Position numbers and translations under genes: made by a program | Virus record (IMG/VR): IMGVR_UViG_3300006916_000427 | Coordinates: 1 to 22,714 of that record | Direction: 5' to 3' (one strand) | DNA length: 22,714 bases | Source of the DNA: a virus | Shown: in pieces, positions 1,037 to 22,207 of the stretch | Numbering within the stretch: position 1 is the first letter of the stretch | How the letters are laid out: every line of letters begins with the position of its first letter | The notes under the pieces: generated by a model | Database searches by the model: none | The model's input: the letters and a program-made list of their open reading frames with translations, nothing else | What the model was told of the DNA's origin: nothing

Positions 1037-1059
1037 TAGGTATATAAAATAATCAACTA
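1037..1059 (-). promoter_or_regulatory. Candidate middle promoter (TAGTTGATTA box), weak -10
   Basis: On the minus strand a perfect TAGTTGATTA (1059 down to 1050) lies 28 bases before the ATG of the cytidylyltransferase-like gene, as in front of the nuclease and glycosyltransferase genes. The -10 is less clear than in those cases: TACATT or CATTAA fall near the expected place and TATAAA lies closer to the start. The call rests on the shared box, not on the -10. Confidence 0.4.
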
Positions 1060-3640: not shown

Positions 3641-4339
3641 TTAACCATTATAAAAAAAGTGTTTTAGTAATTCTTTTACTTCTGCTTTCATATAGTTACC
3701 ATGATACGCTACAAATTTATCTTTATTTAAATAATAAATAACGAGCTTGCGACATTTCTTACCCGTCATCTGCTCGTACAAGTAAGCATATAGCGATAAT
3801 TGCATAGTATAAGTAGAGTGTTCACACACCGATAAATGATCTAGAGGCTCGAGCATCCACTCACCAAAATCTGATCCAAATCTATACCGCTTATTCGTCT
3901 TGAAATCTCCAACCGTAAACGTTCCATCTTTATGTTCATAGATTAGATCAGCTAAACCTGATACTTTAAAATCTTCACTCCAAACTAACTGCTCACATAA
4001 GACTTTATCAAATTTATCTATATTCCACTCACGTGTTTTATCATAGCTTTTATATAACCATCCCCAATTATCTGCTTCATCACCAAAAGTAATATAATCC
4101 TCTAACAGCTTATGAATCTCTGTACCTCTATCACAAGCTTTATTTTTTTCATTCTCCCACATTTCAAGAATCATCTCCTTGGTAACACCCTCTCGTTTCG
4201 CTACTCGTGTCGCGGCACCATCAGCGTCAAATGGTTTTTTATATTTACCTAGTAGGGTTGTTACTGATGTGAATCTCTCACCCGTCTCATCATGAGTATA
4301 AGTATGGTCTTCTTCCCTAAATGTGATAGGAGCTTTCAT
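3641..4339 (-). CDS. PD-(D/E)XK superfamily nuclease (RecB/Cas4-like exonuclease fold)
   Basis: A 232-residue protein with the ordered motifs of the RecB-like PD-(D/E)XK nucleases: RGTEIHKLLE with H76, VSGLADLI with D131, VGDFKTNK with D145 and K147 (D-x-K metal and catalytic residues), and TMQLSLYAYL with Q180 and Y184 (the QxxxY motif). No cysteine cluster of the Cas4 iron-sulphur type is evident. Known family role: metal-dependent DNA cleavage, usually exonucleolytic, in recombination or DNA processing. In T4-like phages such stand-alone nucleases are commonly annotated as exonucleases; the exact substrate cannot be read here. It is preceded by a clear middle-type promoter and no late box, fitting a DNA-metabolism gene expressed before virion assembly. 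Confidence 0.85.
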   Translation of the reverse strand: MKAPITFREEDHTYTHDETGERFTSVTTLLGKYKKPFDADGAATRVAKREGVTKEMILEMWENEKNKACDRGTEIHKLLEDYITFGDEADNWGWLYKSYDKTREWNIDKFDKVLCEQLVWSEDFKVSGLADLIYEHKDGTFTVGDFKTNKRYRFGSDFGEWMLEPLDHLSVCEHSTYTMQLSLYAYLYEQMTGKKCRKLVIYYLNKDKFVAYHGNYMKAEVKELLKHFFYNG

Positions 4340-4351
4340 TACTACAAATAT

Positions 4352-4380
4352 ATTATAATGAAGTTCGTATTAATCAACTA
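4352..4380 (-). promoter_or_regulatory. Candidate middle promoter for the nuclease gene
   Basis: On the minus strand TAGTTGATTA (4380-4371), a 13-base spacer, then a perfect TATAAT (4357-4352). The ATG follows 12 bases after the -10, so the leader would be about 6 bases. A sigma-70 -35 read from TTGATT would be only 14 bases from the -10, too close for normal sigma-70 use but the right geometry for a MotA-like activator box centred near -30. Confidence 0.6.
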
Positions 4381-5078: not shown

Positions 5079-5107
5079 TAGTTGATTATTGCTCGTCTTA
5101 ATATAAA
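5079..5107 (+). promoter_or_regulatory. Candidate middle promoter for the glycosyltransferase gene
   Basis: TAGTTGATTA (5079-5088), a 13-base spacer, then TATAAA (5102-5107), the same arrangement as in front of the nuclease gene. The ATG is at 5119. The TATAAATT at 5102-5109 could also be read as a poor late box, but it lies 9 bases from the start and lacks the final A. Confidence 0.55.
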
Positions 5108-5118
5108 TTATTAATGTA

Positions 5119-6153
5119 ATGAGCGACAAGAGTCCTGAATTTGCAGTCTTTAATATAGAGGGTGGTATCGGTAAGCATATATGCTCTACCGCTGTAGTAA
5201 AGGCATATAAAAATAATCACCCAACAACAAAAGTCATTGTAGTATGTGCATGGCCTGAAATTTATTTAGGTAATAAAGATATAGAACGTGTATATCGGCT
5301 AGGTAATGTACCTTATTTTTACGAGGATTATATATACGCAAAAGATACTGTAGTGTTTTCGCAAGAACCTTATAAAGAGACGAGCCATATTAAGAAACAG
5401 AAACATCTAATTCTTACTTGGTGCAAGATGATTGGCATCGACTATAAAGGTGAAGCACCAAACCTACCTATGAATATGCGCGAGGCTAATTATATTGATC
5501 CGGAATTGTCTAAGATTCAAAAAACAAAACCAATATTACTCTTTCAACCATTTGGCGGGCCTGGTAAAGATCATCAGGCAGATAACTACTCTTGGACGCG
5601 TGATATTCATCCGGAAGTGGCACAACATCTAGTTGACAAGTTAAAGGATCATTATCAGATTATCCATGTGTGTTATGATTTTCATCATAACCTAAATGGC
5701 GTCATTAGATATGAAAAAGTTGTACCTAAGAAAACTCTTTTTAATATGATTCAAATTGCAGATCGTTGCTTATTTGTTGATTCATCATTTCAACATGCAG
5801 CAGCAGCTATGAAAAAAACAGCAACAGTTGTCTGGGTAGGTACGCAACCAGAACTATTTGGTTATGATTTACATACAAATATTAAAGCACCGGTGCAATT
5901 TCCTGAAGGTACTATTGATTCGTATTTGTATGATTATAATTTTACTGGAGCTGGTCATGAGTGTCCATATCAAGATGTGAATCAAATGTTTGATGTAGAC
6001 AGTATATTGAAATCACTCCTACAACCCTCCAAAACAACAGATAAATCTAATACATCTGTACCACAATTTAAAGCACGACCAGATGTAAAAAATACATTTG
6101 GTGTGGCTAAGCGCGCAGCAAACAAAAAAAATCGCAAGAAAACAAACAAATAA
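5119..6153 (+). CDS. Glycosyltransferase family 9-like protein (heptosyltransferase fold)
   Basis: A 344-residue protein that looks like a GT-B glycosyltransferase of the GT9 (ADP-heptose:LPS) type. Seen: an N-terminal glycine loop GGIGKHICSTAVVKAY (residues 15-30) followed by VIVVCAWPEI; the C-terminal half starts with KPILLFQPFGGPGK (137-150) and carries the typical late motif CLFVDSSFQHAAAAM (217-231, D221 and H226) followed by TVVWVGTQP. Members move a sugar from a nucleotide donor onto a glycan. The last 30 or so residues form a basic Lys/Arg/Asn tail (RAANKKNRKKTNK) outside the enzyme fold. Donor and acceptor are unknown; the nearby 6-deoxyhexose genes make rhamnose a reasonable guess, unproven. 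The leading box is of the middle type. Confidence 0.65.
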   Translation: MSDKSPEFAVFNIEGGIGKHICSTAVVKAYKNNHPTTKVIVVCAWPEIYLGNKDIERVYRLGNVPYFYEDYIYAKDTVVFSQEPYKETSHIKKQKHLILTWCKMIGIDYKGEAPNLPMNMREANYIDPELSKIQKTKPILLFQPFGGPGKDHQADNYSWTRDIHPEVAQHLVDKLKDHYQIIHVCYDFHHNLNGVIRYEKVVPKKTLFNMIQIADRCLFVDSSFQHAAAAMKKTATVVWVGTQPELFGYDLHTNIKAPVQFPEGTIDSYLYDYNFTGAGHECPYQDVNQMFDVDSILKSLLQPSKTTDKSNTSVPQFKARPDVKNTFGVAKRAANKKNRKKTNK

Positions 6154-6373: not shown

Positions 6374-6413
6374 AAGCCGGTAGGTTAATATATTAACCTA
6401 CCGGCTTTTTTTT
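6374..6413 (+). terminator. Rho-independent terminator with a 34-base perfect palindrome
   Basis: Bases 6374-6407 are a perfect inverted repeat (AAGCCGGTAGGTTAATA and its complement), followed by an unbroken T run to 6413. It ends the plus-strand unit and sits between two convergent genes. The left flank has only two As, so it should work mainly for plus-strand transcription. Confidence 0.9.
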
Positions 6414-13341: not shown

Positions 13342-13366
13342 TTAAATAAACTTAAATAAATTTACA

Positions 13367-13397
13367 GGAGGAGGTCGAAAGACCTCCTCTTTTTTTA
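13367..13397 (+). terminator. Rho-independent terminator after the sheath gene
   Basis: GGAGGAGGTC, loop GAAA, GACCTCCTCT, then seven Ts. A GC-rich stem with a GNRA-type tetraloop, 26 bases after the sheath stop. The GGAGGAGG inside the stem looks like a Shine-Dalgarno sequence but has no start codon at a usable distance. Confidence 0.92.
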
Positions 13398-19353: not shown

Positions 19354-21236
19354 TCATATATGGAAATAATCTGCATGAGAAGTTACAAGGATTAGCTATA
19401 AGTAAAGATTACTTAAAGTATAATACTCCGTTTTGTGATTTGGTTGATACCCCGGATTGGGAGTTAGATATTAACTTAGCTTTAAACTACAATAGTGCTA
19501 TTAATGGTAATCTAGATTCTGCTACCAAATTAGTACAAGATTTAACTCTTAATAGCGCCATTCTCGATGGTTCAACAATTGAATTTTATCTACTTAAAAT
19601 AACTCATAATCCGATATTTGGATCTGCAATACAAGAGATGCGTTCTAGGTGGGGTACCCCAAATTTATTTTCTGATGATTTTCAATCTTTATTCGAAAAA
19701 GCTCTTTTAGATTGTTTAAACTCTCCCTGTAACTTATTTGCTGAAACATCAGATAGTATTGCAAGAATAGCCCAAACAGCTTCCAACAAGAATAATTCTA
19801 ATTCATTTGGAGTTGGTCAGTTATCCGCATCTTTTAGCAATATGGTTGGTAGTATAGATCAGACTATTATACAAAAAATACCACCCTTATTTAGTAGAGC
19901 GTATACTGAAGTTATTGCAACTTCAACACAAGCATTTAGTAAAGCACAGGAGGTATTAGCTGGTAAGGAAAATATATCCGATATTAATAGTAAAATTAAC
20001 AGTGGTAAATCTCTAAGAAATCCAGCAAGTGTATTTAGATATACACCGGATGTTCGATCTAATTATGATTACTCCGCGGCTAGTAGTAATGTGTTGGCTA
20101 AAGTTCGGCAAGAGCTTGGCGGATGTTTTAGACGTTTCGAGTATAACTTTAGGTATAATCCTTATAGTCCTAGAGATAATAAAAAGAGAAGTATTGGTAC
20201 TAGAGTAGGTAATGTTAATGGAGTTTCTACAGATGAAAATTCTGTAGGACAAACTAAACGTTATAAAGATAATAATTCATTACTTGATAGTCAAACCCGG
20301 ATTAAAGGTGAAAATATAAATATATACGTAGATGGCGAGACTAAAATATCAGATATTATAGAGCATAAACCAAACGGTAACCCACGGTATACTATTTTTG
20401 CAGCCTATATCGATAAGCATCATAAGATTGCTTTTATAGATACTTACGATAAAACCCCTGATGATCTTAAAACTATTGGCGGTGTAGGTAACATTGGTGA
20501 AAATTATCTATACGCTCCTTCAAAGATAGCAAGAACAGACGCTGGACGAGAAGCATTAAGAACTGGAGTTTTAAATGATCCGAATGGTGTTGAGACTGGT
20601 ACCATTGCTCAGTTTGTCACAAATGGTTGGGATCATGATTTGAGTGAATCAAGTATGGAGCAACTAAAACCACAAACTGAAAAAATTTACAATGATGGTG
20701 TTGCAGTTAGTGCAGGTTTATTAGCATTCTTTTTCGGCCGATCTTTAGCAGGAAGTACTAGCAAGGAACGTAAGCAATTTATCAGGGATACAGGTATTGC
20801 TAAATATCAAAGAGCCAATCAGGCGTTTGTTGCTGTTAGACCGGCTAGTACTAGCGACTGGTTATTTTTTAAAATTATTGATGTTAATTCGCAATTAGCT
20901 ATTATCACTGATTTTACTTTAGGAGCGTGGCAATATCTATTAAAGGAATCATTTAACAACAAAAGTATGGATAATTCTGAGAAATCTTTCATTAGTGATA
21001 CAGGCTGGAGTGAAATCCCTAAAATATCTCAAGATGAAATTAAAGGTACTTTAGAGATTAAAATATGCTTAGGAGATCTAGATGAAATCAAAAATATTCT
21101 TAATAATGGAATACCAGAAGAAGCTAATGGTATTGATTCAGTAGAAGGTTCACCGTTTAGAGCAGATGGTACATATGATGAATCTCTGGTACCTGATGTA
21201 GGGACCGATCCGGAAGATCCTCGTTTTGAGAATTAA
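19350..21236 (+). CDS. Large late protein, probably baseplate, unrecognised
   Basis: A 628-residue protein that I cannot place in a family. Seen: an N-terminal globular region (1-130, with FYLLKITHNPIFGSAIQEMR), an Asn/Ser-rich stretch (about 145-215), a basic linker with Arg, Asn and Tyr (about 250-310, RRFEYNFRYNPYSPRDNKKR), a beta-rich part (about 317-365, TRIKGENINIYVDGETKISD and YTIFAAYIDKHHKIAFIDTY), one hydrophobic helix (about 451-468, VAVSAGLLAFFFGRSLAG) and a final strand-rich part (WLFFKIIDVNSQLAIITDFT) with an acidic Asp/Pro tail. No lysozyme catalytic motif of gp5 is visible. Position after the gp48- and gp53-like genes, with ATGA overlap, suggests a baseplate component. It ends one base before the convergent small-terminase candidate. 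Confidence 0.75.
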   Translation: MIIYGNNLHEKLQGLAISKDYLKYNTPFCDLVDTPDWELDINLALNYNSAINGNLDSATKLVQDLTLNSAILDGSTIEFYLLKITHNPIFGSAIQEMRSRWGTPNLFSDDFQSLFEKALLDCLNSPCNLFAETSDSIARIAQTASNKNNSNSFGVGQLSASFSNMVGSIDQTIIQKIPPLFSRAYTEVIATSTQAFSKAQEVLAGKENISDINSKINSGKSLRNPASVFRYTPDVRSNYDYSAASSNVLAKVRQELGGCFRRFEYNFRYNPYSPRDNKKRSIGTRVGNVNGVSTDENSVGQTKRYKDNNSLLDSQTRIKGENINIYVDGETKISDIIEHKPNGNPRYTIFAAYIDKHHKIAFIDTYDKTPDDLKTIGGVGNIGENYLYAPSKIARTDAGREALRTGVLNDPNGVETGTIAQFVTNGWDHDLSESSMEQLKPQTEKIYNDGVAVSAGLLAFFFGRSLAGSTSKERKQFIRDTGIAKYQRANQAFVAVRPASTSDWLFFKIIDVNSQLAIITDFTLGAWQYLLKESFNNKSMDNSEKSFISDTGWSEIPKISQDEIKGTLEIKICLGDLDEIKNILNNGIPEEANGIDSVEGSPFRADGTYDESLVPDVGTDPEDPRFEN

Positions 21237-21748: not shown

Positions 21749-21777
21749 TAGTTGAATTTTTTTATTAGTAGTATATT
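21749..21777 (+). promoter_or_regulatory. Candidate middle promoter for dUTPase and clamp loader
   Basis: TAGTTGAATT (21749-21758, a two-mismatch form of TAGTTGATTA), 13 bases, then TATATT (21772-21777). Transcription would start near 21785, which suggests the dUTPase starts at the second ATG (21786) with almost no leader. A sigma-70 reading (TTGAAT, 16 bases, TATTAT) is also possible. Confidence 0.5.
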
Positions 21778-21779
21778 AT

Positions 21780-22067
21780 ATGGGTATGAAGTTAAAGTTT
21801 GAAAAGACTCATGTTGATGCAGTGCTACCTGTAAAAAATCATGATAATGATACGGGTATGGATGTTACTTCAGTTGAAAGCGTAACTATTCCTGCACGTG
21901 GTTCAGCGGTTGTGGGTGTTGGTCTTAAGTTTGCTTATATTGAAGAAGGGTTTTGGGTTAAGGTAGAAGGCCGTTCTGGACTTGGTTTAAGCATGGCATT
22001 ATGCCACATCCAGGTATCATCGACGAAGGTTATCGTGGCGATGCTGGTGTTAAACTTTATAACCTGA
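21780..22067 (+). CDS. dut: dUTPase, N-terminal part (frame 1 of a frameshifted gene)
   Basis: The reading frame from ATG 21780 encodes a trimeric dUTPase as far as residue 70: KLKFEKTHVDAVLPVKNHDN, motif 1 DTGMDVTS (24-31), then VKVEGRSGLGL (motif 2, 60-70). From there it runs out of frame (SMALCHIQVSSTKVIV) and stops at 22067 without motifs 3 to 5, which continue in another frame from before 22001. The ATG at 21786 (MKLKFEK) is the more likely start, as it fits both the family and the promoter. Known role: dUTP to dUMP plus pyrophosphate, keeping uracil out of DNA and feeding dTMP synthesis. Neighbour: clamp loader 3 bases after the second part. Confidence 0.85.
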   Translation: MGMKLKFEKTHVDAVLPVKNHDNDTGMDVTSVESVTIPARGSAVVGVGLKFAYIEEGFWVKVEGRSGLGLSMALCHIQVSSTKVIVAMLVLNFIT

Positions 22068-22207
22068 CTGATAAAAATTACGAAGTAAAAGCTGGAGAAC
22101 GTATTGCACAGTTCGTAGTATATGCTAACTATCCGGTTGAAGTATCAGAAGGTTCTGTTGAAGAATCTGTTCGTGGTGAAAAAGGCTTCGGTAGTTCAGG
22201 TAAGTAG
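22001..22207 (+). CDS. dut: dUTPase, C-terminal part (frame 2 of a frameshifted gene)
   Basis: This frame holds the rest of the enzyme: MPHPGIIDEGYRGDAGVKLY (motif 3, with the catalytic Asp of GIID), GERIAQFVV (motif 4) and RGEKGFGSSGK (motif 5, the glycine-rich flexible tail that closes the active site). The open frame reaches back past the ATG: the upstream codons read FKHGI, so the family's usual KHGIMPHPG is intact. A single extra A after 21990 would join both parts as RSGLGLKHGIMPHPGIID, about 140 residues in total, the normal size. The 68-residue fragment alone would not be an enzyme. A sequencing or assembly error, a true mutation and a recoding site are the options. Confidence 0.85.
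   Translation: MPHPGIIDEGYRGDAGVKLYNLTDKNYEVKAGERIAQFVVYANYPVEVSEGSVEESVRGEKGFGSSGK

Follow-up and report, generated by a model that had tools for sequence, protein, structure and literature searches.

The bacterial housekeeping promoter recognized by sigma70 consists of TTGACA-N17-TATAAT, and in the T4-type late promoter (TATAAATA) the -10 is replaced by NATAAATA and there is no -35. In the middle promoters of T4, the MotA box wwwTGCTTtA lies 12 +/- 1 bp upstream of the -10, and boxes centred on GATT are also bound by T4 MotA in vitro (PMC2988021). The cyanophage Ma-LMM01 uses SigA-type middle promoters that lack a phage-specific motif, and it has no gp55 (PMC5780444). In marine T4-like phages neither recognizable middle promoters nor MotA or AsiA have been found so far (PMC9004378, PMC5780444, PMC2984593), and one paper considers that middle promoters may have diverged past detection.

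The stretch of DNA analysed here, called the window, is a complete IMG/VR virus record, 22,714 bases long; it derives from a T4-like myovirus and is a fragment of the genome. A megablast search with the window gave no match, no close cultured relative was found, and terminase matches reached at most 38% identity among the matches listed. Bacterial genome contigs searched for host assignment contained no relative of the terminase or the sheath. The word TAGTTGATTA, found before non-virion genes of the window, probably forms the upstream half of a two-part promoter of sigma70 type, a class used in an uncultured clade of T4-like phages, and the box AGTTGATT is, as judged from sequence, a genuine promoter element. 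The analysis yields a sequence-defined middle-type class that extends over many contigs and has a consensus open to test, by which gene timing may become predictable in uncultured phages.

Box sites in the window and their orthologues

Three exact copies of TAGTTGATTA occur in the window, at 1050-1059 (minus), 4371-4380 (minus) and 5079-5088 (plus), versus 0.16 expected, and none of 100 shuffles gave three. Each of them falls within upstream intergenic DNA, a category that covers only 836 of the 45,428 strand-bases of the window; the only other 10-mer with at least three copies, every one of them upstream intergenic, is the late-promoter word AGCATAAATA. A variant, TAGTTGAATT, is present at 21749, 5' of the dUTPase gene, so that both the three copies before genes and the dUTPase variant reported in an earlier sequence-only reading were verified. 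All four sites stand closely upstream of non-virion genes. Copies with one mismatch numbered 6 in the window versus 4.3 expected, which is no enrichment; because they are at chance level, the window by itself is weak evidence for the box, and the strong case comes from related contigs. The parts of the four promoters are as follows, with spacers counted from the TTGA hexamer to the -10.

4372-4379, minus: AGTTGATT box of the nuclease gene (3641-4339), with the -35-like TTGATT at 4377-4372
4350-4357, minus: -10 region of the nuclease gene, TATAAT 4357-4352 (spacer 14) or TAATAT 4355-4350 (spacer 16)
5080-5087, plus: AGTTGATT box of the gene at 5119-6153, the glycosyltransferase (GT) of the sequence-only reading
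5102-5109, plus: -10 region of the GT gene, TAAATT 5104-5109 (spacer 16) and TATAAA 5102-5107 (spacer 14)
1051-1058, minus: AGTTGATT box of the cytidylyltransferase-like gene (452-1021)
1028-1033, minus: -10 of the cytidylyltransferase-like gene, TAATAT (spacer 17), with the ATG (1021) 6 bases on
21752-21757, plus: -35-like element of the dUTPase gene, TTGAAT inside AGTTGAAT
21774-21779, plus: -10 of the dUTPase gene, TATTAT (spacer 16), with the start ATGAAG (21786) 6 bases on

The nuclease is an exonuclease of phrog_298, and for the cytidylyltransferase-like gene the match is phrog_7878. The window dUTPase is broken into a pair of ORFs that overlap in different frames (21780-22067 and 22001-22207), by either a frameshift or an assembly error; relatives have a single ORF of about 140 aa. 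In two related records (G006 at 1871, G015 at 20328), two inverted back-to-back boxes (ATTCAACTACTAGTTGATTA) lie between the dUTPase and a divergent gene.

Alignment of orthologues fixes the register of these promoters. The nuclease box is kept in orthologues of 93-97% identity, and more divergent ones carry TTGATT with TATTAT or TATAAT 16-17 bp away (TATTAT at spacer 16 in G006), the TATAAT at 14 being confined to the window-like subgroup. In GT orthologues TTGATT or TTGACT is followed at spacer 16 by TAAATT or TAAATC, which overlaps a late-like ATAAAT. The box of the cytidylyltransferase-like gene is conserved together with CATTAATATA in orthologues as low as 81% identity, with TATACT at spacer 16 in G006, and dUTPase orthologues that have the box show TATTAT, TATCAT or CATAAT 16 bp from TTGAnn. 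The sequence-only reading had placed a TATAAT, TATAAA or TATATT 13 bases after the word; this is literally so at the nuclease, GT and dUTPase genes, but the conserved register is a spacer of 16-17, and the promoter therefore has ordinary sigma70 spacing rather than being too close for sigma70 as had been claimed. Two sites run counter to a sigma70 reading: the nuclease promoter of the window has its perfect TATAAT at spacer 14, and the GT promoters have a weak -10 at 16 (TAAATT) that overlaps the late-like ATAAAT.

Enrichment and spacing in related phages

Related contigs, of about 50-100% identity, were gathered by terminase and nuclease searches; 18 records (first set) and 17 longer records (second set) were read whole, the second being picked by the GGAACT motif, a criterion independent of the box, and gene starts were taken from a home-made gene caller. 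The exact box is present in 16 of the 18 first-set records, mostly 5' of the same genes as in the window. Among 20 related contigs, AGTTGATT was counted 45 times in 30,199 upstream strand-bases and 29 times in 1,056,247 coding strand-bases, i.e. about 54 times denser upstream, and near words were far less biased towards upstream DNA (upstream versus coding, 4 versus 63 for AGTTGATA and 2 versus 62 for AGTTGATG). With close relatives of the window left out, the counts were 28 in 53,410 upstream and 80 in 2,104,342 coding, a ratio of 13.8 with a Fisher p of about 1e-20; such enrichment p-values are inflated, as the contigs share ancestry and are not independent. Neither of the two outcomes that would have refuted the sequence-only reading was observed: the box does not occur as often within genes, and it is concentrated before replication and nucleotide genes.

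The spacing between box and -10 was examined in several ways. Across the 42 upstream sites left after deduplication, hexamers with 5 or more of the 6 bases of TATAAT occurred 18 times at spacer 16 from TTGAxx versus 1.6 expected, and 4 times versus 0.9 expected at spacer 14, which equals the 13 bases of the sequence-only reading. In a count over 796 protein families from 36 contigs, for which no word was chosen beforehand, AGTTGATT was the most frequent 8-mer 16 bp from a TATAAT-like hexamer (13 families). AGTTGAnn was found in 23 families at spacer 16 versus 0-6 at spacers 12-15 and 17-20. When sites were selected only on TTGA 16 bp from a -10 (39 families), the preceding base was G or C in 90% and the base before that was A in 64%. 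The box promoters thus have the TTGAnn -35 and the TAnnnT -10, 16-18 bp apart, of a sigma70-type promoter.

A scan of IMG/VR for AGTTGATT-N16-TATAAT-N6-ATG gave at least 120 stretches, versus 10 for a permuted box and 33 for the true box at spacer 14, the latter mostly without a real reading frame after them. An ORF of at least 60 aa is opened by 65 of the 81 retrieved matches, and relaxed sites in the retrieved loci numbered 110 (strict ones included) versus 2 for the permuted box. That the box merely reflects chance or AT-rich composition, as the unenriched one-mismatch copies in the window would allow, is extremely improbable: the upstream enrichment, the spacing peak, the family-level 8-mer count and the IMG/VR scan are all contrary, and the controls with a permuted box and with other spacings refute this explanation. 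The 13-base spacing and the MotA geometry were likewise ruled out, by orthologue alignment and spacer controls.

The cultured T4-like Campylobacter phage NCTC12673 (L298, 135,041 bp) has two exact AGTTGATT-N16-TATAAT sites, and five with one mismatch versus one control; it might serve as a laboratory model of this promoter type, or the sites might be chance in an AT-rich genome.

Genes behind the box and the factor that reads it

PHROGs matches behind the promoter in several phages comprise the late sigma factor, ssDNA-binding protein, DnaB-like helicase, UvsX, the phrog_2488 helicase, QueD and QueE. Thymidylate kinase also lies behind a box promoter, and the DNA polymerase gene behind a looser TTGATA-17-TATAAT site. 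In the collection-wide IMG/VR sample, QueD accounted for 16 of 42, with UvsY, dUTPase and the phrog_298 exonuclease also present and endolysins found twice; none of the 25 families listed from this sample was a head or tail family. The gene set is the T4 middle repertoire as compiled in PMC2988021, with sites before replication, recombination, nucleotide-metabolism and late-sigma genes as in T4 middle promoters. The proposal that non-virion genes carry a second class of promoter was thereby borne out, with the box enriched upstream and its gene content parallel to that of T4 middle promoters, and we infer a middle timing for the box genes.

The class has the consensus A(G/C)TTGATT-N16(17)-TATAAT-N5 to 9-ATG and stands before genes for replication, recombination, nucleotide metabolism and the late sigma factor. 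Its TTGATT would most likely be read as a -35 by the host housekeeping sigma or a phage-modified one, and the conserved AG before TTGATT, together with T for C at the fifth position, sets the class apart from generic promoters. The sigma70 reading is favoured because of the TTGA core, the 16-17 bp spacer and the drift of orthologous sites to TTGACT, as expected of a sigma70 -35. Like bacterial sigma70 promoters, the box class has the TTGA core, a 16-17 bp spacer and a TATAAT -10; unlike them, it has a fixed AG or AC before TTGA, prefers TTGATT over TTGACA and is fused to the start codon. As in Ma-LMM01, a T4-like phage without MotA and AsiA, presumed middle genes stand behind a housekeeping-type promoter, but the clade has a distinct box and separate late-type motifs, whereas Ma-LMM01 has no phage-specific motif and no gp55 (PMC5780444).

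T4 middle promoters are similar in their phage-specific element near -30/-35 followed by a good TATAAT, and the core TGATT resembles TGCTT. They differ in that the spacer of the box class, counted in the MotA register, exceeds theirs by two bases and TTGA stands at the normal sigma70 distance, with the ATG about 6 bases after the -10. The geometry, which the sequence-only reading had equated with that of T4, amounts to 14-15 bp in the MotA register versus 12 +/- 1 in T4 (PMC2988021). The description of the box in that reading as unlike the MotA box was overstated, because TGATT is one base from TGCTT and T4 MotA binds GATT boxes in vitro (PMC2988021).

Conservation past TTGA suggests some specificity beyond the needs of plain sigma70. 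Given the conserved AG and a T favoured over C, a dedicated activator is possible, though not required. It is a rather doubtful alternative that AGTTGATT is the site of a phage activator replacing sigma region 4 at the -35, MotA/AsiA-like in action and either unrelated to these proteins or too diverged to be recognized. Such an activator would fit the AG 5' of TTGA, the T in place of C at position 5, the coherent middle-type gene set, the TGATT core one base off that of MotA, and the near absence of the box from the named phages searched, T4 and HTVC008M among them. It is opposed by the distance of 14-15 to the -10 in the MotA register and by the TTGACT variants and 16-17 bp spacing, which fit sigma70 directly. 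Moreover, MotA and AsiA profiles matched nothing in 26 related records, which are genome fragments, and the same search found both in T4.

A separate class might also be dispensable if middle expression came from early promoters that overlap late ones, a model put forward for RB49 and S-PM2 (PMC2984593). The nuclease site of the window, GAACT-N4-TATAAT (4366-4352), fits the GGAACT class of the phage too, the orthologous site in G001 carries GGAACT, the sites of G001, G005 and G014 overlap GGAAC-N5-TATAAT, and the GT site overlaps the late-like ATAAAT. Yet only 3 of 32 box families also have the late motif and 4 of 32 the GGAACT motif, most box promoters having neither; this explanation, largely refuted by these family-level overlap counts, is improbable.

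Three promoter grammars and probable leaderless starts

Besides the box, the clade has two further promoter grammars, and the three hardly overlap. The early-like GGAACT class, AAGGAACT-N4-TATAAT-N5/6-ATG, was found at 307 places (230 deduplicated) without a conserved -35, and there were few or none in T4, HTVC008M and the cyanophages tested; no description of GGAACT with TATAAT in phages was found in the literature. It is very regular and mostly precedes small genes, for example in G001 at 64-76 kb (L106), G004 (L111), G007 (L118, L119) and IMG/VR contigs. The late type, (N)ATAAATA or (N)TTAAATA, occurs at 225 sites exactly 5 bases ahead of the start, and the late and GGAACT family sets do not overlap (0 families). 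Box promoters are not of the T4 late type, the late motif being limited to the 3 of 32 families. In the window, virion genes have CATAAATA or TTAAATA directly 5' of the ATG, e.g. just before 11005 and 13429, and the 11 late-type calls mostly have a gap to the ATG of exactly 5 bases. Late motifs exactly 5 bases before starts were likewise observed in HTVC008M.

Whatever the class, usually 5-9 bases, and mostly 5-6, separate the end of the promoter from the ATG. Shine-Dalgarno-like words were counted at 98 of 1,118 genes without a promoter versus 131 in the coding control, and at 15 of 714 genes with a promoter versus 117, so that no signal stood above background in the clade (window and G001-G035); the same test gave clear signals for T4, HTVC008M, a Pseudoalteromonas phage and a Rhizobium phage, of each of which a stretch was examined. 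With promoters ending this close to the start codon and Shine-Dalgarno signals absent from the clade, the mRNAs are probably leaderless. With a -10 about 6 bases before the start codon, an mRNA from a box promoter would begin at the ATG or a few bases off. The box, the GGAACT class and the start-codon fusion together suggest a leaderless expression strategy, which was not seen in the T4, cyanophage, Pseudoalteromonas and Rhizobium phage stretches tested. A broader proposal, that the clade runs three start-codon-fused leaderless grammars without Shine-Dalgarno signals and that, in addition, AGTTGATT is recognized by way of a middle-class activator or a sigma modification that has no relation to MotA/AsiA, is tentative and on the whole unlikely. 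Three strong hairpins with T tails, resembling intrinsic terminators, were also observed in the window at 6374-6407, 7586-7558 and 13366-13391.
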